Shown piece by piece: positions 1,624 to 60,071 of a stretch of 64,000 nt of DNA (its first letter is position 1; every line of letters starts with the position of its first letter). Location: assembly GCA_905221615.1 (NCBI GenBank), contig CAJNDT010005867.1, forward strand, positions 450,673 to 514,672. The letters are read 5' to 3'. Under the pieces are notes generated by a model. It had not been told where the DNA came from, did no database searches, and saw only the letters and a program-made list of their open reading frames with translations. A program made the translations under genes and the position numbers. The stretch comes from Symbiodinium sp. CCMP2592. Taxonomy: Eukaryota; Sar; Dinophyceae; Suessiales; Symbiodiniaceae.

Positions 1624-2232
1624 AGACACAGGGACAAAGAGTGGAGAAGACGAGGAAGACTGGTAGCAAGAGAGTTCAAGTGGTTAGGTGATACAGATAT
1701 TGCAAGTTTGTTTTCGCCAACCGGTGTAGCAAGCACAGTGAAGCTACTATCAGCCCTATTTGCGTCTTCAGAAGGATATACACTGGGAAGTATCGATGTT
1801 GGAGATGCTTACCTAATGGTGGAACAAGAAGAACCAACAGTGGTTGAAGTCGATGGAGAGTACTACGAACTGGGATACACGTTGCCCGGTCAGCGAATCG
1901 GGAGTGCAGCTTGGTTTGGAAAGTTGAAAAGCTACCTGGAAGAGTACGGGTTAGCAAGCGACAGTGGACTCCCGGCATTATTCTCAAGGATGCCAGATGA
2001 AGATGGATTTGGCATTATTGTTTTGAGTCACGTAGATGACATGGAACTTTACGCATCAAGAGAAGAGTTCAAGAAGTTGGTTGAATTCTTGAGAAGCAAA
2101 GGATTGAAGATCAAAGTGGAAGGACCACTAGATGAGAAAGAAGGATCAATGAGTTTCCTGAAGAGAAGTGTCAAGTCGATGAACAATGGAAACGTGGAGA
2201 TCACAATGAATTCAAAGTATGTTGAATCTTGA
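1624..2232 (+). pseudogene. Copia reverse transcriptase fragment (element A)
   Basis: The frame continues from the integrase after one stop codon. The start RLVAREF and the block GSIDVGDAYLM match the first catalytic-aspartate region of copia reverse transcriptase. SHVDDMELYA stands in the place of the usual YVDD box, with His instead of Tyr. The frame closes at TGA 2230-2232 and homology resumes one base over at 2219, which indicates a single-base indel. The missing ATG between 1624 and 1707 is expected for an internal polyprotein segment. Confidence 0.8.
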
Positions 2233-3079
2233 AGGACTGGTAGAAGTGTTGAAACTTGAAGGAGCATATCCGAAGAAACTACCGTGTCCAGCAGACACTG
2301 GAAGAGCATTTCAAGCGAAGAAAGGTGGAATGGAACCGCTGAGTGCAGAAGATCACCACACGTTCAGAAAAGGAGTAGGGATATTACTGTATCTTGCGCC
2401 TGAGAGGCCAGATATCATGTATGTCCTGAAGAAGCTGTCGACAAAGCCAGCATCACCCGTTGAAGCAGACATGGAACTGCTAAGGCTAAGGTACGTTGGA
2501 AAGTATCTCAAAGGAACGCCAGAACTTGCGTTGGTACATCAAAGAAGTTACCCTGGAAAGAGTTTCCTGGAAGTGAAGAACAGCAATGAAGGAAACGACG
2601 AAAGGGACAACTACAAAGTGCCAGCACTGATAGAGGTGATAAGCGACAGTGATTGGGCAGCAGACCGAGAGTCAAGGCAAAGCGTTTCGTGTGGAGTGAT
2701 AATGGTGAATGGAAACCTGGTTCATTTCCAAAGCAAGAGACAAAAGAGCGTGGCATTATCATCTTGCGAAGCTGAGACAATCGCAGCGACGTCAATCTTA
2801 AGCGAAGGTGTATTCCTGAAAGGATTACTGACAAGAATCCTAGGAGTAGAACCAAGACTGATGTTATACAGTGATTCGTCAAGCTCAAGGCAGTTGATTT
2901 CAAGAAAAGGTTTAGGAGGAGCACGCCATTTGCAAGTGGACCTTTTATGGATCCAAAGAATCCCGAAGCTTGTTATAAAGGCAATAGCAGGCAAGGATAA
3001 ATCCGTCAGACAAAGGGAACAAATCCCTGACAAGGGAGAAGATGCGCAAATACATGCTAAGTCTCGGATATACAGGTGA
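2219..3079 (+). pseudogene. Copia RT thumb/connection and RNase H (element A)
   Basis: This frame holds the end of reverse transcriptase (LYLAPERPDIMYVLKKL) and a copia RNase H with SDSDWAAD (first Asp), SSCEAETIA (Glu) and YSDSSSS (second Asp). The final ~25 codons are out of frame. The conserved C-terminal block (NPSDKG..., then MRKYMLSLGYTGEYL) is in the next frame from about 3000, a second frameshift. A catalytically dead, non-autonomous copy is the natural reading. Confidence 0.82.
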
Positions 3080-40429: not shown

Positions 40430-40879
40430 CGTTCTAAACACGTTTTGGTTTAAACGGTTTAACCTTAAACGTGTGTAAACATGTTTAGCCCGTGGGTCGA
40501 TTTAAGTTTATTTGTTTAAACATAGTCGTCGCATTGAGATGTTGAAACCATGGTTTAAACATGTGAAGAACGGCATTTAAATGTCTCAATACACTTGTGC
40601 CAACACCCGCTGTTCAATCACATTCGGAATGTGTGTCACGGAGATCGGCTTCCAGCCTGCTTAGACACATGCAGCATGTGCGGCGGTCATGGAACTGCTT
40701 AAACATGTGTTGAAACATGGTTTCAGCACGTTCGGGATGTGTGTCATGCAGGGAACTGTTTAAACATGTGTTGAAACATGGTTTCAACACGTTCGGGATG
40801 TGTGTCATGCAGGGAACTGTTTAGCATGTGTTTAAACATGGGTTTAACCACATTCGGCATGTGCGACACTCACAGAACT
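40430..40879 (+). repeat. ~61-bp GTTTAAAC satellite, left block
   Basis: GGAACTG marks successive units at 40691, 40752 and 40813 (61-bp period). Units contain GTTTAAACATGTGTT-type words, an ACATTCGG block and end CACAGAACT. Units upstream of 40600 are degenerate. Confidence 0.85.
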
Positions 40880-41214
40880 TGTTGAAGGTGTTCACCCTGG
40901 GTGGCCATACCCTGCAGCGAAGCTCACGCAGAATGTTTTCTATGGCTGGGCGCAGAGGCGACTCACGATCTCAACGAAGCAACAAGAGAACCGACAAACC
41001 AACAAACGACCTGTACAGCTTTACAAGTTGTTGGTTACAGTACACATGGCTCAAGAGGCTTTCCTACGCAGCCTTCCCCTAAGCCAAAGGATACAGGAAA
41101 CACACATGTACAAGCCTACCTGAAGGAAACTATACAAGTGCCGGCAATCCCTTCAAGCAGACTACACACCTGTCTAACCTGATACCTGGGCATGCAGTGA
41201 GAAGCATTTCAACA
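40880..41214 (-). repeat. 3' LTR of copia element C
   Basis: 335 bp, identical by eye to 50372-50706 at an offset of 9492. Short inverted ends TGTTGAA/TTCAACA. The 93-codon frame inside both LTRs is incidental. Confidence 0.95.
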
Positions 41215-41310: not shown

Positions 41311-44300
41311 TTAGAGACCTGTGCGGTGGCGGTCTCTGCAAACACGGCACAAGTTGCGGGTAGTTAAGGGTGTATTACGCCTTAAACCCCAACAATTAGA
41401 ATCTAGATGAACACAATCCCCGTGCGCAGTGAAGTAAAAGGGACCTTGGGGAAGTTCATACTGCGTGCGGATTTCGATCCTGGCAGGCATCGGATCTGGT
41501 GGGACTCCTGTGACTGGTTGGAAAGCAGGCTCACGATCCGTTTGAGTAGACTGCTCACGCGCTGCAGGGCGGCGACGAGACTGTGTGGCCTTGGGCCGTG
41601 GTGCAGCAGGCAACTCGTGGGAGGACTGCGAAGGCAGTGGTGCCCTCTCGTTGTGAGCTGTGGACTCACCTGCTGGTGGTCTGGAAGACACGTCCTCAAG
41701 ACTCATGCCCTGCAGTTGGGCAGCAAGCTCGTCCTCAACAGCTCTCTGCATACGCCTCAAACGCCGGGCTCGACGAGACGACGCATGCGAACCAGCCCAC
41801 CACGCATCAAGCCGATCCCACAATCTCTTCAACCACTCCCACACAACAAGGACACAAACCAATGCCATGCCAAGAACGAAGTACAGCTCCAGGGATCCAT
41901 CAAGCTGCAAGCCAGGATACTCGGATTCACGGCTTGAGCTTCGTGCAGGTTGGATTTGAAGCAAACACAACAAGGCACTCAACGCGACTGGGTCGACAGC
42001 TGCTGACGAGCTCGGCCTGACCTCTCGGTCGGCTGTATCACCCGCAAAGTCACGCATGCCCCATAACCTGACAAGCTCTTCAATCCTTGCAGACGGAAGA
42101 GGTTTGGTCAGTAGATCTGCAAGCTGTTCCACACCCGGGCAGAAGGCAAGCCTCAGCTTCCCAGAGCGAGTCTGCTCACGAAGGTACTCAGCTCTTACCC
42201 GTAGGTGTCGCGTTCTCCATGATCCATGACCGTCAGAAATCGCAAGTGACGCTTGGGAATCAACGTGCAAAACCCTTTCTTCCGCAACGTCAAAACCAAC
42301 CGTGTGAAGCAACGCCTCAATTGATTCAAGCGCGATTGCACACTCAATCGAAGCAGTGAGTTCACTTTCAGCAGTAGAAAGTGTCACAAAAGCTTGACGC
42401 GCCGACCTCCAAGCAACTGGACATCCATGCACACACACGCACCAGCCTCCATGTGAGCGAAGGCCTTCTGGCGAGAAGCTTGCGTCACTCCAACCGTGAA
42501 GTTGGGTTCCGTCCGCCTCAAACACCAGCGACGCTGTCTTGGTTCGCTGCAAGTAAGCCAAGGCACGGTCAGCAATGCGTAGAGCACGACAAGGCGCCTT
42601 CGTAGACAAACTAGCAAGCAAGCTGGCAGTGAACGCCAGGTCCGGGCGAGTACGTTGAGACAACCACAGCAGTTCACCAGTCACCTGTTGCGCGCGGTGA
42701 ACGGCCTCCCCGTCAGGGGGGCTGGAGTCTCCTTCGCCAACTTCAAACGACGCTAGCTCCCGAGGACAAGGGATTCTACCCCTCACGTGGCAAGGTACCT
42801 CATGAAGCCGCAAGACTTCTTCTGCGTACGACTGCTGTGAGAGAACAAACCCACGAGGAATGACAATGATGTCCACGCCAAGGAACTTGATCGGCTGCTC
42901 TGGGGTAGCTACCACAAACGGTGTTGTGGCCCACTTTTCTTGCAGAGCCTTTGCCAAACTTTGAAGGACACCTAGCGACCCACACAACAAGAAGTCATCA
43001 ACGTACACCAACAATGCGCCCTCAACGCGACCACCTTCAACCCTGACGACTTTCCACCAGTTCGGGTCTAGGGTCGAAGGCTCAAGCCGGTAGGTCACGC
43101 CGTCAAGGTCCCACACCAACGCTGCCAAACAAGCATCTCGATACTGTCCCCACAAGCGCGGGGCCTCTCGAAGGCCGTAAACCGCGTGGGATAGTATCCA
43201 CAGCTCATGTGCAACTGCAAGACCAAGCTTGACCAACAAGCGGGGCGGGGTCAACGCAAAGATGGGGAAACCTTCAAGACAAGGAATAGGCGTTTTGAGG
43301 AACGCGCTGGTGATATCCAACACTCCCAACAACCAACCAAAGAAGCTTGCCAGGGCAATCACTGTTCTCAAGCTCTCAGCCTGAGCACCTCCAGCATACA
43401 CATCCAAGCCTGTATTTGGCGCCACATTTCCGCAAGCAACAAGTCTCGCTTTCCGACGGTACAAACTTTGGCCTTGCGACGAAGCCTTTGGAGCGCCCTG
43501 AAGGGCCTCTGTACTGTTGTCGGGCTGAGTGAGCGCAAGCTTTCCAGTGTCACCAACAGCTGCTGCCCCTTGGTCGGGCGGTTTCACTGTGAACACAAAC
43601 TTGGAAGGTACCACCTGCAGTCGAGGATCACTCAAGTACTCGGCCTGCCTGGGGTCTGAAGGGCGCAGTCTGAGCACCGCATGCTCAATGGCCTTTACTT
43701 CTTTCTCAATGGACGGAATCCAAGGGATTGGATTGAGTGCGACTTCTGCGGGGTCTACAGTGTGAACGATTTGCAGAGGTGAGCTTAGATTGCTTAGAAG
43801 GTGTTCTATGTTCTTCGTGAACGTCGGTTCGGCTTTGCACAGGCGGTAGGGGATTACGGGTCTACCTTCGCTTACGAAACCCTCCTCCTCTAACGAGCTC
43901 CGCGAACCACTTTCTACAACCTTAAGCACCCTCAAACTGCAGTTGCTGGCGTTTGCGGCATCGCTCATGGGCTCCTGCGGAACATACATGTCCCAAGACA
44001 CAGTAACCGGCCAGGCCTCATCAATCTCAACGGGTCTTTGGTTCTGCTCTGGTCCGGCCTCCTCTTTAGAGGGGCTGCATACAGGGGCAACTGGCCGATA
44101 CGAACACGACCAGTTCACAGCGAAGTCTACAAACCCATCTGCAACTGGAAAGACCTCTTGCCAACCACCACCTTTGTTGACGGGTTGGCTCTCCGGGAAG
44201 CTAGGGTGTTGATGGATAGGGATCTCATGAGCCTCAGTGGCCTCCTCCTCCTCCTGTACTTGAGACAGACGCGGGGCCTGGAGATAGGCGGAGTCTGGGA

Positions 44301-47300
44301 GAGGAAATCCCAAATCTGCTAAGCCGTCAAGGTCATCTTTTTCGGCCTTTCCAAGCACGTCGGAAGTGTAGCCTATAACAACGACGCGGGTGCCCTTGAA
44401 GGGAGTTACGAAATGATGCCGCTTAGGATCAAACTCGAAAACTTCATCCTCTTCAAGTCTGTGCACCACACCGTGACGCTTGCGACCTCGTGCATCAGTG
44501 TGCTCTACAATAGACCCCCTAACAACATCCCCACTACCTAACTCAACCCAAAGATCGCCCCCACGCTTAGGAAGACACACTGGTAGGATGAGGTTTGTAG
44601 TTCCCGGAAGGTTGGAAGAATCAGTGTGAATGTCCTTTTGACACGAGTTGGACAGACACACCGACGTGAAGGTAGCATCAGGTGCGTGATGCTGCAACAG
44701 GCGCGCGCACAGTGAGGCAAGCCACGGCCTACTCCAAGTCGATCGCATACAGCCTACTATCCCTCCCCTACGGAACATTCCAGCTTGATACTGCTCTTCG
44801 GGATAGGCTTGGCAAACCTGCATGAGGAGATTCTTGGCAGCCTCAGGATCCCATTCCTGCAGCAAAGTCTTTGCGCCAGCTTCAAGCTCAGACCACGTCC
44901 ATGAGCCGAGCTGGGCAGCTCTCAGCTCTGCTTCTGGCGGGGACTTTCCTACAACGCGACGCCTTACAGGGACAGACTCGCCCTCAAACTGCTCAGGGCT
45001 CTCAGGAGGCTCAACAACCTTAGTTCTCACGTGCAGCGACTGTGTGAACCCATTGCCTTTGCCATCATCCCTGTACACCAAATGACCTTCATTAACCGTT
45101 GGAGATAAACCCGCATACCGACCTGAAATCCACCGTTCGGCAATCTCGCCCTTAGCAGCTGCAACAGACGTGTAGGCCTTCACGCGCACCAGGCACTTAG
45201 CACCAAAAGGCGCTGCAAGCTTCGTGGCCATACCTAGTACCTCAGACCTCTGCTGTGCTGCAGCAGCTCGCATTGCACATGCCCACAGGGGCGGCGGGAA
45301 ATCAGCAGCTCGCAGTAGAGTTCGTGCCCGAGTCTTAAGCCACCTGATGGTGCGCTCTGCTGAGCCGTTTTGGGCTGGCGCATCACCCTCAGTTGTGGTG
45401 ACCCTCACGAGCTGATTTGCAAACCACTTGCGAGTGGCCTTATTCATGAACTCACGCGACCTATCGGTATGCAAACGCAAGACTGGAAGATTGAGTGCCC
45501 GCAAGTAGAGGTAAATTTCTTGAAGGGCTTCAAGGACGGAAGGCGACTTATTGTCAAACAGCGGAACGCAGAACATGAGCCTGTCAGACTGCACTGGCTC
45601 TTTGAGATCTGAGTACTCAAACTCCCAATCCCCTTCTTGAGGACCGCGATTCGGGAGTGCCTCCTCCTCGTCGTCAGCTTCCTCCTCCTGAGCCTCTTTT
45701 CCATCTTCCTCCTCCTCTGCTTCTTGGCTCTCGGCCTCCTCTTTAGAGGGGCTGTAACTGTCGTCCGGAGCATGTGGTGGAGGCGGAAGAGGTGGGGCAT
45801 CATCTTCACTAAGATTCTCTAAGATATCCCTCGCTTCTTCTTCAGTTAGCCCTGTACCTGCACCCTCAAGGAAATCGTCCAGCGGCTCCTCCTTGGAGAG
45901 ATCTACCTCATCTAAGGGGTCTGGAATTTCGGGCATGCCGTGCAAACGAGGAAAGCGATACGAAGCAGCTAGAAAATACTTGAACTTCTTCGGCGCCTTT
46001 GACCTACCTTCCGGGTCAGCACCTGGCACCTTCAGAGGTCCACAGACATCCGCAGACAGAGTGAACTGTGAGGGGTGAGTCACACCAACGTGGCGGCGTC
46101 CTGAGGCGGCAGTTCTGATGCACACACTACAGTCTTTCCGAAACGGTTGGTGATTATTCTTCACATGATCCCTCCAAGCCTGTTCGTCTGCCTTTGTTTT
46201 GGCAATGCGGAACCACCTAGACCAGTTTTGGATGCTCATGCTCACGGCTTGGGCAAAACCAGGGGCCCATCGAGCTGAATCATGGGACTTGCGGTGCAGA
46301 TGAGGCATGCCACTGCTCTCACTCTCAGGCTCTGCAGCGGCTGCCTGCACAGTGACACCACGCAAACCCTTGTCAAGGCTTAGGGTCTCTAGGTACTGCA
46401 AATCACCATAGTTCGTGCCTAAGGTCGTAGGCCTACTTATCACATGCTCTAAATCCCCCTTGTAGACATGAACTTCAAACAACCCTGCTTCATCGGCATA
46501 GGAATTCCAAAGTCCAGTATTCCAAAAACTAGGGACCTGACCAAACAAGGCATGCGAAGGAGGCACGTAGCGATCAATAAGCATCGGGTGCTCAAGCAGA
46601 AAGCCAACCTCAAGCCTAGTAACTCCAGCTGGCGGCCTAACCTTGCGACCTGCCGTCGCCACAGCATGCAACCAAATCTGTCGGCAAAGCAAAGCCGTTT
46701 CACGATCAACCTTCGACCGTTGTGCTGCTGACAAATCTGGAAGGCCATATAAGTCCAATGGCCCGCGCACAGGTGGGACAACGCTACTCCCATGAGCATG
46801 TGTGTCAAACGTACCACGCGGTGGAGCACCAAGAAGATGCGACACTTTGCCATGCACGGCACCCCAAACTAGAGCGCGCCAAGCAGGAGTGCGTAGCACA
46901 TCTTGGTCTGAGCCTCTGGTAATGTCCAATTCCAGGACAGCCACATTCTTGGACTCAAGGTGCGAAAAGGGTTTAGGGCCTGGGGCTCCAGCGTACAGAT
47001 GAACAATCCACTCTGGGGCATTGAGCAATGCACGACGGCGACGCCGATTGAGATGCGTCAAACCCTTTAGGAGCTCCCATCCTGAAACCTGAGCAACATC
47101 CTCAACAAGTCCCTGCAAAGCTGCTTGGGGAACATCTGCCAAGAAAGGCGCGGCCTGCAACGCTAGTTGGGCTGAATTGGTAGATCCAAGGCTCACATAG
47201 TCCTGCATGTGATCCCACCAGCTCTTTGACATCAAGGCTTTGACAGCTCGGATGCGAGAGGTACCTTCGGCCACATTCGCCTCCAGAGACTTCAAGTCCT

Positions 47301-50300
47301 CTAGCCGCTTTTCTTCTAGCTTGCTGATTAGCACCAAGGCTTCTGATTCCATGATCTCTGGACACCCACCTTTAACCCTCAAGCGAAAGGCACGACCCGA
47401 AGGAGCAATCAAACGGCATCGCGAGGCAGTCCAATCCAAACGATACCCCAGCTGCTGGATGACAGAACCCAGCGGCACGATGGTTTGGGCACTAGATGTG
47501 GGAGGCAACAGAAGAGTACCAGCAGCAGACAAACGCATAGCCGAAGTCTCCTTTCCAGCCAGTGACACGACAACGGGTTGCGCACTAGCCCATTCAGCTT
47601 CGGAACTTGCAGCGCGAAGGGCATGAGTGGCCCCACTGTCTACCAAAGCCAAAAAACTAGGACTACCATCTACTTCCAAAACCTGCCCAGGCTCAATGGC
47701 TGTGAGATGGATGGTCTTAATGCTCGGCTTAGGCTCCTCCTGCGCTGCAGGTTTGTCTTCAATCGCCGGAGGCTGCGCGGGAGCGGCTGGGGTGGATGCA
47801 GGAGGAAAGGCTTCGGAAGAACTGGCAGCTGCAAACATCATGCGCATAAACGCTGTGAAGTCCTCCGCTCGGCCTGGGCTCGCGCCCGGCTGGATTGCAG
47901 TAGACGCCTGATCAGCCGTTGTAGGCCTGTGGCCTGCAGCATTGTTGGTGTTTCCTCCACCTGGCTGTCCTTTCCCCTTTGGGCTTCCTCCAGCTACCGG
48001 GCAGTCCTTTTGGCGGTGTGCCTCAGAGCCACATGCTAAGCACTTCTTGCTGCGCTCCTGACGAGAAAGTCCTGACATGTCGTGGCTAAACGTGCACTTA
48101 GGACCCCGCCTACACCCCGAAGTACCCATGAAAAACTTGCAGGGCTTTGAAGCCTGCGGCTGCCCACTGGCCTTTGGAGATGTTCCCGGACTGGGCGTGC
48201 CTACAGCTCGAACCTTAGGGGCACTCACACCTGTGGCCTTAGAGACTGCAAGGGCTTCCATCTCTGCAAGCAAGTGCTTGTGATACTCCAGGACTGCAGA
48301 CGAAGTTGGTTGAGCATCTATTTTTAACATGGAACGAAGCATAAACGTTCGAAACTTCGCTTCTTCATGCTGCGCCAAAACTTGGCTAGTGATGGTAGTG
48401 AGGCTCTTGGACAAAATGGTCGAGTCCGGAGGTGACATGTTGCAACTTTCACAGCGATTGTACCAACGAATCCACTCACGCAAAGACTTCACGGCTGAGG
48501 AGGGATCAGATGCTGGAGTGGGCTGCATGAGATTCTTCTGAATAACCTCCTTTTCTGAACCTCCACCTGGTTGGTACGTGGTGTGCAAACGGAAAAGGAT
48601 GGAAGGAGCTGATTGATTGCATTTGCGGGCCACAATGTCTGCTTTGATAGACTCGGGAACTGCCGCCATAAGCATACTACAGATCCTAAAGTTGACACGC
48701 GCCCATCGCCCTTGAAGCAACTCAGCCGGTACAACGGGCTCAACCTTTAGCCTATCCAAGGGTGATGACGAAATCCAAACCCCATAGGCCGTATCAACCA
48801 CACCCAAAACCTGACGCCACCACTCTGCTGCTGTGTCCGAAACATCACCGACCAAACCCCCAATCACAACTAACCAATCTTGGTACAGAAGAGACCCTTC
48901 ATCCGAAGTGAGCTCTGCCAAAGCTGGGAAACTCGAGATGCCTGGCTTAACAGCTTCAGGGTTGGTGGGAGAATTACCGCCATCGCGTTCGGCGCGAGAT
49001 CCCTTGAGCATCTCTGACATGGCATCTTGAAGTTGATGCATCCCAGCAATCAGTATCTCACGATCTGTGGGTCCTGATGCACTCGCGGCTCCTGCTGGCA
49101 GTGTGCCTCTGGGTTCTGCTTGTGGCCTCTGCGGTGCAGGGCTGGAAGACCGCGCACCGGAACCAAGGAGCCCTGAGAACAAACCAGCGAAGCCCTGAGG
49201 CTCGGGAGCGGAAGGAGGCGGAGGAGGAGGCGGTGAGGATGAAGAAGGGGCAAATCCAACCCCAGTGTTGGCGACAGGATGCGAACCGAACCCACTATCA
49301 CCAAACCCACTAAAGCCAACCTCCCTAGTACCCACCTGCTGCAACGCCGTAGCCTCAACTTCACCAGCCTGCTGAGACCGAATCCTCGAGAGTTCGGCCT
49401 CAGCACGACCAGCTCTCTCTTGCTCAGCTCGCAGTTGCTGCTTCAACCCATCAAGCTGTCGCGCGACTTCTGCCTGAATCGCATCATGCGGAATAGATGA
49501 GGACTCGGTGTGCGGAGGCCTGTCCGGAGACCCGGACCCGTAGAGCAAGGGAGCTCTTTGCTCCATGGCAGCAAGCTGCTGCGCGTTGGCACCAGTGAAC
49601 AACGGCATCGGCACTTGACACTCATCTTGCAGGACGCGGCCTCCTCTCTCGAGGGGCTGTAGTGGTCGCGACGGCCTTGGAGGAGAAGTCAGTGGACTGG
49701 GAGCCCACCCTTGCGGCAGTGGCTGTACGTTCGCCGCGCCACCAAACAGAGACTGCACTCTTCCTAGCAACTGACTAGCAAAAGCCTGAGCCCCAGTCTG
49801 CATGACCGCTGACGCCCCGTACGCCGTTGATCTGGGCGTTTCAAAGCCCTCAGCACTACTTCCAGGATTCGCTGCAGATGGGTTGTACCCTGAGACGCCT
49901 GCGGCAACATTGATCTGAGCGCTAGCCATTCCACTTTCGGTGGCCACACTGAAACCCTGAGTCACTGCAGTTGCATCTCCATGTACCCCACTCGCATCAG
50001 CGACCTCCGTGGTAGATACTGCTTCATACGTAACGCCAGCTGTGCCCAAGCCTCCAACCTGGCCTAGTGTTCCATCGCCTCCTGTCCTACCGACTGCTGA
50101 AACTCTCGGTTGACCGGCTGTTCCAACAGTTTCTTGTGGCAGCTGAGGGGATAGCACTGGACCAGCTGTGGAAGTCGATGGCCCCGACGACGCATCCATC
50201 ATAGTTTGCTGGATTCCATCCCCAATAGGCTGCGCAAGCCCAGAGGGCGATGGCACTCCAACTCCGTTCACTGTAGTCTGCGGTGCATCCCCGCCTCCCC

Positions 50301-50400
50301 GCACTCCAGGCAGAGAGGCCGGAGAAGCCACCGCTCCGGTTGCTTCTGGCCCAGGCGTTGGGCTCATCACCTGTTGAAGGTGTTCACCCTGGGTGGCCAT
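41311..50400 (-). CDS. Copia Gag-Pol polyprotein with embedded dioxygenase-like domain
   Basis: 3029 aa. Residues 1-450 low complexity; Gag ~490-740; C-x8-C-x5-C-x3-H finger 754-773 and CCHC knuckle 787-800; protease Asp921 (VDSGATH); HHCC-like zinc segment (HVKNNHQPFRKDCSVC) and integrase core with Asp1451, Asp1646 and Glu1682. An acidic insert of ~130 residues lies between the two Asp. A TET/JBP-like 2OG-Fe(II) domain follows (His1925-x-Asp1927, His1995/1996, Arg2005); RT with YVDD from residue 2466 (42994-43005); RNase H (SDASF, AESEL, HVDSQAS); then a transmembrane segment (YFVLGMALVCVLVVWEW) and a Cys/His tail (CVHLDSNC ... CRVC). The start codon lies inside the 5' LTR (50372-50706), so the first nine codons are LTR sequence. 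A protease presumably cleaves the product. Confidence 0.92.
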   Translation of the reverse strand: MATQGEHLQQVMSPTPGPEATGAVASPASLPGVRGGGDAPQTTVNGVGVPSPSGLAQPIGDGIQQTMMDASSGPSTSTAGPVLSPQLPQETVGTAGQPRVSAVGRTGGDGTLGQVGGLGTAGVTYEAVSTTEVADASGVHGDATAVTQGFSVATESGMASAQINVAAGVSGYNPSAANPGSSAEGFETPRSTAYGASAVMQTGAQAFASQLLGRVQSLFGGAANVQPLPQGWAPSPLTSPPRPSRPLQPLERGGRVLQDECQVPMPLFTGANAQQLAAMEQRAPLLYGSGSPDRPPHTESSSIPHDAIQAEVARQLDGLKQQLRAEQERAGRAEAELSRIRSQQAGEVEATALQQVGTREVGFSGFGDSGFGSHPVANTGVGFAPSSSSPPPPPPPSAPEPQGFAGLFSGLLGSGARSSSPAPQRPQAEPRGTLPAGAASASGPTDREILIAGMHQLQDAMSEMLKGSRAERDGGNSPTNPEAVKPGISSFPALAELTSDEGSLLYQDWLVVIGGLVGDVSDTAAEWWRQVLGVVDTAYGVWISSSPLDRLKVEPVVPAELLQGRWARVNFRICSMLMAAVPESIKADIVARKCNQSAPSILFRLHTTYQPGGGSEKEVIQKNLMQPTPASDPSSAVKSLREWIRWYNRCESCNMSPPDSTILSKSLTTITSQVLAQHEEAKFRTFMLRSMLKIDAQPTSSAVLEYHKHLLAEMEALAVSKATGVSAPKVRAVGTPSPGTSPKASGQPQASKPCKFFMGTSGCRRGPKCTFSHDMSGLSRQERSKKCLACGSEAHRQKDCPVAGGSPKGKGQPGGGNTNNAAGHRPTTADQASTAIQPGASPGRAEDFTAFMRMMFAAASSSEAFPPASTPAAPAQPPAIEDKPAAQEEPKPSIKTIHLTAIEPGQVLEVDGSPSFLALVDSGATHALRAASSEAEWASAQPVVVSLAGKETSAMRLSAAGTLLLPPTSSAQTIVPLGSVIQQLGYRLDWTASRCRLIAPSGRAFRLRVKGGCPEIMESEALVLISKLEEKRLEDLKSLEANVAEGTSRIRAVKALMSKSWWDHMQDYVSLGSTNSAQLALQAAPFLADVPQAALQGLVEDVAQVSGWELLKGLTHLNRRRRRALLNAPEWIVHLYAGAPGPKPFSHLESKNVAVLELDITRGSDQDVLRTPAWRALVWGAVHGKVSHLLGAPPRGTFDTHAHGSSVVPPVRGPLDLYGLPDLSAAQRSKVDRETALLCRQIWLHAVATAGRKVRPPAGVTRLEVGFLLEHPMLIDRYVPPSHALFGQVPSFWNTGLWNSYADEAGLFEVHVYKGDLEHVISRPTTLGTNYGDLQYLETLSLDKGLRGVTVQAAAAEPESESSGMPHLHRKSHDSARWAPGFAQAVSMSIQNWSRWFRIAKTKADEQAWRDHVKNNHQPFRKDCSVCIRTAASGRRHVGVTHPSQFTLSADVCGPLKVPGADPEGRSKAPKKFKYFLAASYRFPRLHGMPEIPDPLDEVDLSKEEPLDDFLEGAGTGLTEEEARDILENLSEDDAPPLPPPPHAPDDSYSPSKEEAESQEAEEEEDGKEAQEEEADDEEEALPNRGPQEGDWEFEYSDLKEPVQSDRLMFCVPLFDNKSPSVLEALQEIYLYLRALNLPVLRLHTDRSREFMNKATRKWFANQLVRVTTTEGDAPAQNGSAERTIRWLKTRARTLLRAADFPPPLWACAMRAAAAQQRSEVLGMATKLAAPFGAKCLVRVKAYTSVAAAKGEIAERWISGRYAGLSPTVNEGHLVYRDDGKGNGFTQSLHVRTKVVEPPESPEQFEGESVPVRRRVVGKSPPEAELRAAQLGSWTWSELEAGAKTLLQEWDPEAAKNLLMQVCQAYPEEQYQAGMFRRGGIVGCMRSTWSRPWLASLCARLLQHHAPDATFTSVCLSNSCQKDIHTDSSNLPGTTNLILPVCLPKRGGDLWVELGSGDVVRGSIVEHTDARGRKRHGVVHRLEEDEVFEFDPKRHHFVTPFKGTRVVVIGYTSDVLGKAEKDDLDGLADLGFPLPDSAYLQAPRLSQVQEEEEATEAHEIPIHQHPSFPESQPVNKGGGWQEVFPVADGFVDFAVNWSCSYRPVAPVCSPSKEEAGPEQNQRPVEIDEAWPVTVSWDMYVPQEPMSDAANASNCSLRVLKVVESGSRSSLEEEGFVSEGRPVIPYRLCKAEPTFTKNIEHLLSNLSSPLQIVHTVDPAEVALNPIPWIPSIEKEVKAIEHAVLRLRPSDPRQAEYLSDPRLQVVPSKFVFTVKPPDQGAAAVGDTGKLALTQPDNSTEALQGAPKASSQGQSLYRRKARLVACGNVAPNTGLDVYAGGAQAESLRTVIALASFFGWLLGVLDITSAFLKTPIPCLEGFPIFALTPPRLLVKLGLAVAHELWILSHAVYGLREAPRLWGQYRDACLAALVWDLDGVTYRLEPSTLDPNWWKVVRVEGGRVEGALLVYVDDFLLCGSLGVLQSLAKALQEKWATTPFVVATPEQPIKFLGVDIIVIPRGFVLSQQSYAEEVLRLHEVPCHVRGRIPCPRELASFEVGEGDSSPPDGEAVHRAQQVTGELLWLSQRTRPDLAFTASLLASLSTKAPCRALRIADRALAYLQRTKTASLVFEADGTQLHGWSDASFSPEGLRSHGGWCVCVHGCPVAWRSARQAFVTLSTAESELTASIECAIALESIEALLHTVGFDVAEERVLHVDSQASLAISDGHGSWRTRHLRVRAEYLREQTRSGKLRLAFCPGVEQLADLLTKPLPSARIEELVRLWGMRDFAGDTADREVRPSSSAAVDPVALSALLCLLQIQPARSSSRESEYPGLQLDGSLELYFVLGMALVCVLVVWEWLKRLWDRLDAWWAGSHASSRRARRLRRMQRAVEDELAAQLQGMSLEDVSSRPPAGESTAHNERAPLPSQSSHELPAAPRPKATQSRRRPAAREQSTQTDREPAFQPVTGVPPDPMPARIEIRTQYELPQGPFYFTAHGDCVHLDSNCWGLRRNTPLTTRNLCRVCRDRHRTGL
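44325..44790 (-). other. TET/JBP-like 2OG-Fe(II) dioxygenase domain in element C
   Basis: Residues ~1870-2025 of the polyprotein, between integrase and RT. His (44626-44628) and Asp (44620-44622) form HTDSSN, an HxDxxN iron motif. A GG-DLWVEL turn follows. A distal His pair (44413-44418) sits in RHHFVTPFKGTR, and Arg (44386-44388) is positioned to bind 2-oxoglutarate; RVVVIGYT gives the closing strand. This order and spacing fit a double-stranded beta-helix dioxygenase. The HxDxxN and H-x2-TP-...-R details recall TET/JBP DNA base oxidases. Function is inferred from motif only. Confidence 0.6.
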
Positions 50401-50706
50401 ACCCTGCAGCGAAGCTCACGCAGAATGTTTTCTATGGCTGGGCGCAGAGGCGACTCACGATCTCAACGAAGCAACAAGAGAACCGACAAACCAACAAACG
50501 ACCTGTACAGCTTTACAAGTTGTTGGTTACAGTACACATGGCTCAAGAGGCTTTCCTACGCAGCCTTCCCCTAAGCCAAAGGATACAGGAAACACACATG
50601 TACAAGCCTACCTGAAGGAAACTATACAAGTGCCGGCAATCCCTTCAAGCAGACTACACACCTGTCTAACCTGATACCTGGGCATGCAGTGAGAAGCATT
50701 TCAACA
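50372..50706 (-). repeat. 5' LTR of copia element C
   Basis: 335 bp; contains the polyprotein ATG (50398-50400) 29 bases before its inner end. Right after the LTR the sequence reads GGTGATGAGCCC, with no TGG-initial primer-binding site that I can recognise. Confidence 0.95.
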
Positions 50707-51010
50707 GAACTGTTTAAAAATGTGTGTAAACATGGGTTTAAACACATTCGGGTGCAGGGAACTGTTTAAGCATGCGTTTACACATGGGTTTAAACACAGT
50801 CGGCATGTGCGACACTCACAGAACTGTTTAAACATGTGTTTAAACTTGGGTGAAAACACATTCGGCACGTGCGGCATTCAGGCAGGTGTTTAACCATGTG
50901 TTTAAGCATGGGTCTAAGTACATTCGCCGAATGTGTAAACCCATGTTTCAGCACGTGTTCATGTGTCGTTTCAATCATTTACACATGTTGGCACGCATGT
51001 TTCAACTTGG
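50707..51010 (+). repeat. ~61-bp GTTTAAAC satellite, right block
   Basis: Continuation of the left block after the GAACT duplication; unit starts (GAACTG) at 50707, 50759 and 50821, with further degenerate units to about 51010. Confidence 0.85.
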
Positions 51011-57201: not shown

Positions 57202-58023
57202 GGGAAGTAGGGGACCTCACCCGGCAATCGCAGCACACACCTGAGAAGCCAATAGCAGGCAGCGGCTTACCCACTGGCGTCGGCCCGGCAGAGGGACGGC
57301 CCTCTTGCACCAGGAGGAAGGCTGAGGCATTGAATTGGCGAGATCCGCTGACAGTGGGTTGGTGGTGCCGCCTCCAAGCCGCCGGGCTTCCTGGTGCAAA
57401 GCCTGTGCCTGGGTCCCTTCGCTTCCTATAGAACGTTGAAGTTCTAGTCGCGAATTGAACAACGGCTCGAAGGGCTCACTGGTCTTAAGTCCCCAATCAG
57501 AGAAAGCCAGCAACCATGAACGAAGCGCCGATGCGTAAGCTCTTTTTGCACTAGACCAAATGCTCGGGACGGTGATGATAGGCGCTTGCCTTCTTTACAC
57601 TATACAAATGCGTACCGGCTCTGGCGCTAGGTCTTGCCGTGCCATGAAGCTTAAACCACACGGCCATAAAAACACATCATGCCACACAGGGAGGGCACAT
57701 GTTTCTGCACTCCTCCTTGATGATGCCGTTAGGCTATGCATCACCCCTCATTTTCTGCCCGACATGGATGAAGTCCTGTGACTCACCTATTGTAGATGCT
57801 GCGTCCACCATTCTCAACGCAACACCTGCAGAGTCGAAGAGCTTGGGCCCTGCCAGTGTTTCGCAATCCCCAGCAATTTCCATGAATGTGAAGAGCATCT
57901 GTTCCCGGTACATGGTGATATGGGCCCGCAAAGGTCTCGACTCTGACTTCCGGGATTGGTTCCGGTCGCAGTTGATAGTCCTTTTGGACTCCTTGATCCC
58001 GGGTTGGTGGTTTATCCCTTCTA
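57202..58023. other. No recognisable gene
   Basis: Short frames on both strands. A 65-codon - strand frame (57734-57931, IAGDCETLAGPKLFDSAG) is protein-like but unassigned. Confidence 0.4.
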
Positions 58024-58608
58024 TTAGATGACGAAAAAGCCTGCGGTGTCAGGCACTGTAGGAACCGGAGAGGTATTGGAGGGCATTGTAGTCTCGAACA
58101 GGTCCCGAAGGTAGAGGAGTCTTACGCCCTGAGCGTCCGTTGGGTCGCTCGGGTCAAGAGCTAGGAGCCGTTGAAGCTCTTTAAGCTCACTCCTTGATAT
58201 CTTGCCATAGCCAGCTCTCGCCCTCAAAGCCCGCAGTCTCACATCACTTCCCCGAATACATTTCTTCGAAGTCTCCCAGAGGAAGATGACCACAATTGCA
58301 ATCACCAACACAACCACGTATAGATCCCAGGGAATCTCAGTCTGCAACTGACCGGTTTCTGAGCGAGCTCCGCAAACTTGGCAAAGCATCAACAACTTCA
58401 TCAACCAGGAATTATTCGTTGTAACCGCCCGGATCGTAGGTTGCATATCTGGTCGGCGACCAACAACATTCCAAAGTCGCAAAAGCTGTGACAACCGCTC
58501 TTTAGGGAGTGGCTTTGTCCCTAAGTCTGCCCTTTGGGTGATTCCAGGCTCAAAAACAACTTGGAGCTCCTTCTGGTGGATCTTCTCCTTCACAAAGTTA
58601 GATCGCAA
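58024..58608 (-). pseudogene. RNase H end and transmembrane tail (element D)
   Basis: Starts within the RNase H C-terminus (VFEPGITQRADLGTKPLP). About 90 residues later a strongly hydrophobic stretch (LYVVVLVIAIVVIFLW) appears, then a basic, helical tail. The same post-RNase H membrane segment occurs in elements A and C. Confidence 0.75.
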
Positions 58609-58708
58609 GTGGCGTGTACGCCATGAACCCGAGGAACCTTATAGCAGCATCACAGCCGATTGGTTGTCAATGTGAAGGTAAAGAGATAAAGGCTTGCCAC
58701 TCAACTCC

Positions 58709-59551
58709 TCAAGGAGAGTCTTGGTAGAGCAACCCAGTATGGTACCGTCCACCCTCAAGCAACTCTGACTCTGCGGTTGACAGAGTGACTAAGCTCTGTC
58801 TGGAAGACCTCCACGCTATCGGATTGTTGTTGTAGAACACGGCGGCTGCTCCATGGCTACGGCCTGAACTGGGAGCGAAGCTGGAATCGGTGAAGCCGTG
58901 GATGGCATCCAGGGATTCTTCATTGTTGGAAAACCGGATCCTGTAATGGAGGGTCTCGTGAAGGTAGTTTAGGACTCGGTTCGCAACCTGGTTGACAATC
59001 TCTGGGCATCTGGTAATGCTCGACGAAAGCAATGCCGTAATATATTGAAGATCAGGACGTGTGCGGCCTGTCAACCAGAGAAGCTCCCCGACGACCCTTT
59101 GGGCCGCCTTAACTTGATCTTCTTTTCCGCTCAAGTCCACGGGCTGCGCCAGGATCATCGCCTCCTCCTCCCCAAGGGTTAACACCATAGTTTCCTTGGT
59201 ACCTGGAGTCTTTGACTTAGAGCCATCATGTCCGTGGGATCGTAGTAGTTCACGTACAAACCCTTCCTGAGCAAGCTCCACCCCATTGACAACGAGATGA
59301 AACTCCATGCCCAAGAACCTGATGGGGTGGTCCTCTTCCAAGACGTCCAAACTATCACATTCCCATCTGGAAGCTACCCAACCGCAGAACGTGTCCATCA
59401 CGGTGGGCACGGCATTTATCAACAGGTCATCAATGTAGACCATTAGGTAACCAAGAGGTTCTTGATCACCATTAACTCTAACGATCTTCCAGACCTGGTC
59501 AGTCCGGAATTTGGAAGGGGCCTTCCGAGGAACCGTCAAAGCTCGCAGCAA
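58709..59551 (-). pseudogene. Copia RT C-terminal half and RNase H (element D)
   Basis: YIDD active site (MVYIDDLLINAV), thumb region with PIRFLGMEFHL and TRPDLQYITALL, then RNase H with FTDSSF (Asp) and LSTAESELLE (Glu). The frame departs from homology at ~58730. The next catalytic block (HIDNQSAV) continues in another frame, ending at a TAA near 58641. Confidence 0.85.
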
Positions 59552-60071
59552 CTGACCAAGTCGTTGAGGGATATTACCGGGCCCTTTTGCCTGGAATTTT
59601 TCGCGGGAGCATCTCGCATCACTTCATCACTTCTGCACTCATTGAACGATCCATTAAATGCGTTCCGATTGATATCTGCATTTCCTCTTCTCACAACGTA
59701 TGCATTCGGATGTTGAGCATCGTCTTCTCAATTGGGGTCGTTCTGGCAGAGTCAAGTTCGTTTGGATTGGTATGCCTAGTACATCTTTTTCGGCGATTAG
59801 AAGTGATGGTGATGCAAGGCCCGACGCGCTCCGCTTGTACGACGAGCCTTTTGGCGTGTCAGGGCTGTCCGCTTATGGATCCTCCAAAGTCAAACTGGGT
59901 AATGCAATCTTGTACTTCAGCATCAGACTCATGCGAGTGTGTCAGGCCATGCAAGTTCCCTTCGCCTTTGAAAACCCTCGATTCAGCCGCTTGGACGATG
60001 CCGCCTATGAGAAAATTCATTTGGGAGGTACAGCCTTGCTCGGTAGAGTTGGATTACTGTCAGTACAATGA
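59552..60071 (+). pseudogene. C5-methyltransferase-like domain fragment
   Basis: Motif I place CLEFFAGASRIT (from 59591), an acidic second-strand end SIKCVPIDI in the next frame, then FVWIGMPSTSFS (motif IV place, Ser instead of the catalytic Cys), KLGNAILYFSIRLMRVCQAM and PFAFENPRFSRL (motif VI, ENP) in a third frame to 60071. At least two frameshifts break it. Related in fold, but not closely in sequence, to the methyltransferase-like domain at 27.9 kb. It may come from another class of dinoflagellate retroelement. Confidence 0.55.

Follow-up and report, generated by a model that had tools for sequence, protein, structure and literature searches.

Does the Ty1/copia element in this stretch of Symbiodinium sp. 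CCMP2592 DNA encode an enzyme that oxidises nucleobases? The stretch (assembly GCA_905221615.1, contig CAJNDT010005867.1, positions 450,673 to 514,672), here called the window, is 64,000 nucleotides long and contains a copia polyprotein with a block between its integrase (IN) and reverse transcriptase (RT). A preliminary description, made from the letters alone, had taken this block for a TET/JBP-like dioxygenase. Its predicted structure makes it almost certainly a real domain with the fold of a 2-oxoglutarate- and Fe(II)-dependent (2OG-Fe(II)) oxygenase. The overall reading, which is rather likely, is that the block is a 2OG-Fe(II) oxygenase whose active site is intact and whose closest likeness is to TET/JBP and other nucleobase oxidisers, and that it forms a lasting extra Pol domain of dinoflagellate copia elements. 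The domain and its key residues are as follows, with positions of the window and amino acids (aa) of the polyprotein.

44329..44850, minus strand: core of the 2OG-Fe(II) oxygenase (TET/JBP-like) domain, aa 1851-2024, from the AlphaFold2 model and VIA-align
44626..44628, minus strand: His1925, predicted first Fe(II) ligand of HxD, His in 22/22 polyproteins
44620..44622, minus strand: Asp1927, predicted carboxylate Fe(II) ligand, Asp in 22/22
44611..44613, minus strand: Asn1930, five residues after the first His (H+5), Asn in 22/22
44413..44415, minus strand: His1996, predicted distal Fe(II) ligand, His in 22/22
44386..44388, minus strand: Arg2005, predicted anchor of the 2-oxoglutarate carboxylate, Arg in 20/22, Lys in one, gap in one (truncated row)

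The motifs HTDSSN (aa 1925-1930), RHHFVTPFKGTR (aa 1994-2005) and RVVVIGYT (starting at aa 2005) are all present, in frame and at the place first described. The position between integrase and RT also holds, with a weak Pfam rve match before the block (aa 1607-1670; E 0.15, under cut-off) and RVT_2 after it (aa 2313-2533). The location given earlier stands, and its extent of 44325-44790 is replaced by the better core 44329-44850, which is longer on the N-terminal side. AlphaFold2, run from a 21-row alignment, predicts the double-stranded beta-helix of 2OG-Fe(II) oxygenases, the fold first proposed, with a predicted local distance difference test (pLDDT) score of 92.7 and a predicted template-modelling (pTM) score of 0.88. 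The matches listed for the domain model by VIA-align and Foldseek are mainly 2OG-Fe(II) enzymes. Besides the predicted beta-helix, the HxD...H triad and a downstream Arg/Lys, which characterise the 2OG-Fe(II) superfamily, are present. A profile search of the 932 open stretches of at least 40 aa in the window detected no second copy of the domain below E 0.77.

Conservation of the predicted active site

Relatives, referred to as P0001, P0002 and so on, were collected with aa 1780-2060 as the domain query. This gave five matches among polyprotein-sized proteins (E 6.5e-55 to 2.1e-7) and 11 fragments among short proteins. A second-round query with P0005, the most distant first-round match, gave 17 matches, 16 of them new. 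The named sources are Symbiodinium strains KB8, CCMP2456 and CCMP2592, and P0032 comes from EukProt. P0012, a fragment from Symbiodinium sp. CCMP2456, has 97% identity to the window domain over 37% of the query. The domain profile matches 22/22 polyproteins, including that of the window, which is partly by construction.

The His/Asp/His residues singled out in the preliminary description are each kept in every one of these polyproteins, as is Asn1930, and Arg2005 is nearly so. Invariance was scored on 20 sequences, with one duplicate and one near-duplicate left out of the 22. The median pairwise identity among these 20 is 28% (16-87%), and just ten of the 211 positions do not vary: G1879, G1883, H1925, D1927, N1930, G1948, W1951, G1977, H1996, and G2003. 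All three predicted metal ligands are within these ten, with a chance for three named positions of about 8e-5, a figure that applies to relatives retrieved by similarity to the domain itself, where common words around HxD may have aided retrieval. In the same 20 sequences the spacing between the two His is 65-71, and that from His to Arg is 9-10.

A chance motif was rejected on this ligand invariance and on the homology across 22 polyproteins. The catalytic residues survive deep divergence, and their conservation is therefore not merely lack of time to decay. A recent insertion without constraint was likewise rejected, since the catalytic residues are conserved in deep relatives. Of the two explanations first offered for the intact domain, selection and no time to decay, constraint stood and mere lack of time did not. 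The short fragments that cover the site are a point on the other side, since they keep the first His in 4/5 (lost in P0009) and the distal His in 7/8 (lost in P0013). Such losses are expected where some copies are live and others dead. The predicted active site of the copia-borne domain is very probably functional. A viral or phage source was dropped, as no relative was found in IMG/VR or phage records by searches that reach close relatives only.

TET/JBP affinity and competing activities

VIA-align ranks NgTET1 first with both domain models. In the deep model the root-mean-square deviation (rmsd) from NgTET1 is 2.9 over 151 residues, with model residues 22-195 on NgTET1 residues 116-309. Tet_JBP (PF12851) is the Pfam family that matches most members, 7/21, all under the curated cut-off: P0004 (E 5e-4), P0018 (7.6e-4), P0017 (1.7e-3), P0005 (2.3e-3), P0021 (5.1e-3), P0027 (0.015), and P0030 (0.089). 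These matches fall in profile positions 55-162 of 164. The invariant Asn1930 occupies H+5, counted from His1925, and D234 of NgTET presumably lies at H+5 too. NgTET D234A serves as an inactive control (PMC11404850, available part). In CcTET the first metal ligand is His326, and Gly331, at +5 from it, is a position at which the substrate is recognised (PMC12730594, available part).

Several results weigh against a TET/JBP identity. Among the 21 members the best Tet_JBP match scores 19.8 bits, short of the 34.9-bit cut-off, and the window copy is not matched at all. The family 2OG-FeII_Oxy_3 (PF13640) matches P0031 (E 4.6e-4) and P0004 (3.1e-3), that is 2/21 members, with a best score of 21.5 bits against a cut-off of 27 and no match in the window copy. 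Ntox17, which is presumably not of the oxygenase fold, matches P0005 (E 0.0027) and P0021 (0.016), two of the rows that match Tet_JBP. Unrelated families score alike, and single matches at the Tet_JBP level can therefore be chance. No TET chain is among the 50 Foldseek matches listed for the domain model, which include Vaccinia C16, WelO5, IDO, PHD2, and ABH2 with query TM-scores of 0.23-0.41. In the weaker model NgTET1 has an rmsd of 4.9, worse than several lower-ranked VIA-align rows. Searches of PDB sequences returned no oxygenase with the domain-alignment profile or with P0004 and P0018 singly. The window copy alone has no oxygenase match in Pfam, nor by phmmer against PDB sequences. The best matches in PHROGs (E 0.003, phrog_6059, 4/21) and in NCBIfam (0.068) were weak, and the matches in both were to other families. 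The HxDxxN motif occurs in prolyl hydroxylases too.

TET/JBP is thus the best single family guess for the domain and is not decisive; that the domain is TET/JBP-like in the strict sense is marginally favoured. It is filed as a 2OG-Fe(II) oxygenase, TET/JBP-like. The identity first claimed keeps the NgTET1 ranking and the seven Tet_JBP members on its side, and lacks a match above cut-off, any match in the window copy and a TET chain among the listed Foldseek matches.

A nucleic-acid substrate is predicted and probable. The alternative that the enzyme acts on protein, as prolyl and lysyl hydroxylases do, and modifies Gag, integrase or a host chromatin protein, would accommodate the shared HxDxxN motif and the 2OG-FeII_Oxy_3 matches. 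It is nevertheless unlikely, since NgTET1 outranks all prolyl and lysyl hydroxylases in both models, PHD2 has an rmsd of at least 3.5 in the deep model (in the weak model NgTET1 is the worse), and Tet_JBP is found in seven members against two for 2OG-FeII_Oxy_3. The position beside IN and RT would also favour a nucleic acid. An AlkB-type RNA/DNA demethylase, which would strip methyl groups from element RNA like the Gypsy-encoded Phalaenopsis enzyme, is a little less likely again. Oxygenase-like folds can be degenerate, as is generally known, and one ligand is lost in some short copies; both would suit a fold kept without an enzymatic role, as a structural or DNA-binding Pol module whose residues are kept by happenstance. 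A purely structural role would not require the metal residues to be among the few invariant positions at such low identity, and this last explanation is very improbable.

Pol architectures and the host element

In six proteins (the window's, P0001-P0004, and P0032) an integrase match precedes the oxygenase domain and RT follows it. Of the other 16 proteins, 15 have an integrase-type HHCC motif downstream of the domain and P0022 has none, in a motif scan that is loose and gives stray matches elsewhere too. P0028 and P0030 have weak Pfam gag_pre-integrs and rve matches downstream of the domain, under cut-off. The tree of RT and RNase H (RH) contains 21 rows, as P0022 is without an RT match, and separates the two architecture sets at 100/100 on a very long branch; the program warned of long branches (P0030, P0004, P0032, and others). 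In the domain tree, the window, P0001, P0002, and P0003 cluster at 99/98, and P0032 is added weakly (90/88). P0004 falls within the other set (90/88, not starred), though by RT it belongs with the window's set. The domain thus occurs in two distant copia clades: it follows integrase in that of the window and precedes integrase in the second. It may have moved within Pol, been captured repeatedly or been exchanged between the clades. SymbioDIRS elements present the same kind of domain-order change in Pol as these copia clades (PMC5890265, available part).

The host element of the window copy comprises the following parts, including its long terminal repeats (LTRs).

41311..50400, minus strand: Ty1/copia polyprotein, a single open reading frame of 3029 aa with gag, protease (PR), IN, 2OG domain, RT, RNase H, and C-terminal extension
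45031..46197, minus strand: integrase region, aa 1402-1790, upstream of the oxygenase domain, by profile match
42802..43464, minus strand: reverse transcriptase, aa 2313-2533, Pfam RVT_2 E 3.6e-14
50372..50706, minus strand: 5' LTR, 335 nt, TG...CA, identical to the 3' LTR
40880..41214, minus strand: 3' LTR, 335 nt, TG...CA
50707..50711, minus strand: target-site duplication AGTTC, 5' side, 5 bp
40875..40879, minus strand: target-site duplication AGTTC, 3' side, 5 bp

The element belongs to Ty1/copia by its RVT_2 match, IN before RT, the PR-IN-RT-RH order, TG...CA direct LTRs, and the 5-bp duplication. The integrase profile match to the window copy is by construction, because that copy is itself in the profile. 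The gag part has CCCH and CCHC-like fingers, with the CCCH at aa 752-774 (Pfam). Translation of minus strand 50400-41311 gives 3029 codons with no internal stop, and the two LTRs have 0 differences over 335 nt. The identical LTRs, the AGTTC duplication and the intact frame therefore mark a recent copia insertion, and the copy is young and intact as first described.

The first ATG of the polyprotein lies inside the 5' LTR, 29 bases from the LTR end (50372-50400), so that, were it the start codon used, the coding sequence would overlap any primer-binding site. The insertion site is a minisatellite array with a 61/62-bp unit, which is present on both flanks (40665-40865 and 50760-50926). The C-terminal extension (41311-41931, minus strand, aa about 2824-3029) contains a hydrophobic stretch that looks membrane-like, and its end is H/C-rich (HLDSNCWGL...CRVC). 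Polyprotein ends that resemble it are also found in P0004 and in a decayed relic at 57819-58031. Between PR and IN, the region at aa about 1101-1362 (46315-47100, minus strand) is conserved and common to the window, P0001, P0002, P0004, and P0032. Its blocks are VVHLYAG, LELD, GGPP(C/R/Q)xTF, and LLExP, with the Cys kept only in P0001. These blocks have a likeness to a C5-methyltransferase, and a relic of such an enzyme is not claimed, with 0 support from Pfam, PHROG or PDB.

Two further copia relics lie in the window. A decayed relic of another element at 57819-59623 (minus strand) has an RT profile match of E 1.4e-58, and no oxygenase domain was detected near it. Another at 1624-3076 (plus strand) consists of two open stretches with RT profile matches of E 5.2e-6 and 5.4e-11.

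Proposed role and known systems

In dinoflagellates, thymine is present as 5-hydroxymethyluracil (5hmU) from 12% in Symbiodinium microadriaticum to 68% (PMC11071213, available part). In Breviolum, most classes of repeats show 5hmU enrichment, and few repeats are less accessible than Copia LTRs, according to the same part of that article. The Symbiodinium genome is mostly CG-methylated (PMC5890265, available part). Given dinoflagellate 5hmU and Symbiodinium CG methylation, both candidate substrates, thymine and 5-methylcytosine (5mC), are therefore at hand.

The domain would be released with IN and RT in the particle, or would be active as part of Pol. It would hydroxylate thymine or a methylated base, either in cDNA or RNA of the element or in newly integrated chromatin. 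A new copy would thereby either bear the pattern of modification that the host uses to mark and silence repeats, or evade it. Action on the element's own DNA is somewhat doubtful, and we infer thymine or 5mC as the base attacked and cDNA or chromatin as the place of attack. The fuller proposal is of a copia Pol-borne base oxidase that writes or edits thymine or 5mC oxidation (5hmU or 5-hydroxymethylcytosine) on new copies, from two Pol positions in two deep clades reached by relocation or multiple capture; it is tentative, possible and short of probable. If true, it would represent a retrotransposon-borne counterpart of the host's 5hmU marking of repeats. If 5hmU silences elements, an oxidase borne by the element would more likely over-oxidise or displace the mark, or act on 5mC, than write 5hmU on the element itself. 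A recent copia insertion with a TET-like oxygenase makes possible a direct test of how elements live with or exploit 5hmU.

No dinoflagellate copia element that carries a 2OG oxygenase domain, TET-like or otherwise, was among the matches listed from titles and abstract starts of the open-licence literature, which covers few subscription papers, in line with the earlier statement that none is known. The general kind is already known, from DNA methyltransferases (DNMTs) in Symbiodinium LINE and DIRS elements, AlkB in orchid Gypsy elements, and TET/JBP in fungal DNA transposons. Judging by its title, the PNAS paper of Li C. et al. 2024 reportedly deals with an enzyme that makes 5hmU and takes part in the silencing of transposable elements. 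That enzyme differs from the copia domain in being taken for a host gene, since the title has it silencing elements. NgTET1 of Naegleria (PDB 4lt5) also differs, as it lies outside any polyprotein and has 11% identity to the domain.

SymbioLINE-Dnmt and SymbioDIRS-Dnmt3 are similarly Symbiodinium retrotransposons with a captured enzyme that modifies DNA bases, whereas their enzymes are methyltransferases and their carriers LINE and DIRS elements (PMC5890265, available part). According to its authors, in the same part, Copia is the most abundant superfamily in Symbiodinium and is without any DNMT domain. The words TET and dioxygenase have no occurrence in the main text of that article. A 2025 paper that cites it mentions streptophyte and dinoflagellate elements, of the LTR Copia and DIRS types, that carry DNMT3 (PMC12344493, available part).

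The Phalaenopsis Ty3/Gypsy elements are, like the copia element, LTR retrotransposons with an extra 2OG-Fe(II) oxygenase, theirs tested as an N6-methyladenosine (m6A) demethylase. In contrast, theirs is of the AlkB family, in a separate open reading frame, and in orchids (PMC9289625). In the same study, 121 angiosperm genomes were screened, and the filter left 15 extra domains, every one of them in a Gypsy-type element and none in a Copia-type one. A 2025 fungal survey records no retrotransposon encoding TET/JBP in its available part (PMC12730594). The fungal TET/JBP elements of that survey likewise are mobile elements with a TET-like 2OG-Fe(II) oxygenase and an HxD...H site, but they are DNA transposons and some Helitrons, whereas the domain described here belongs to the Pol of a dinoflagellate LTR retrotransposon.
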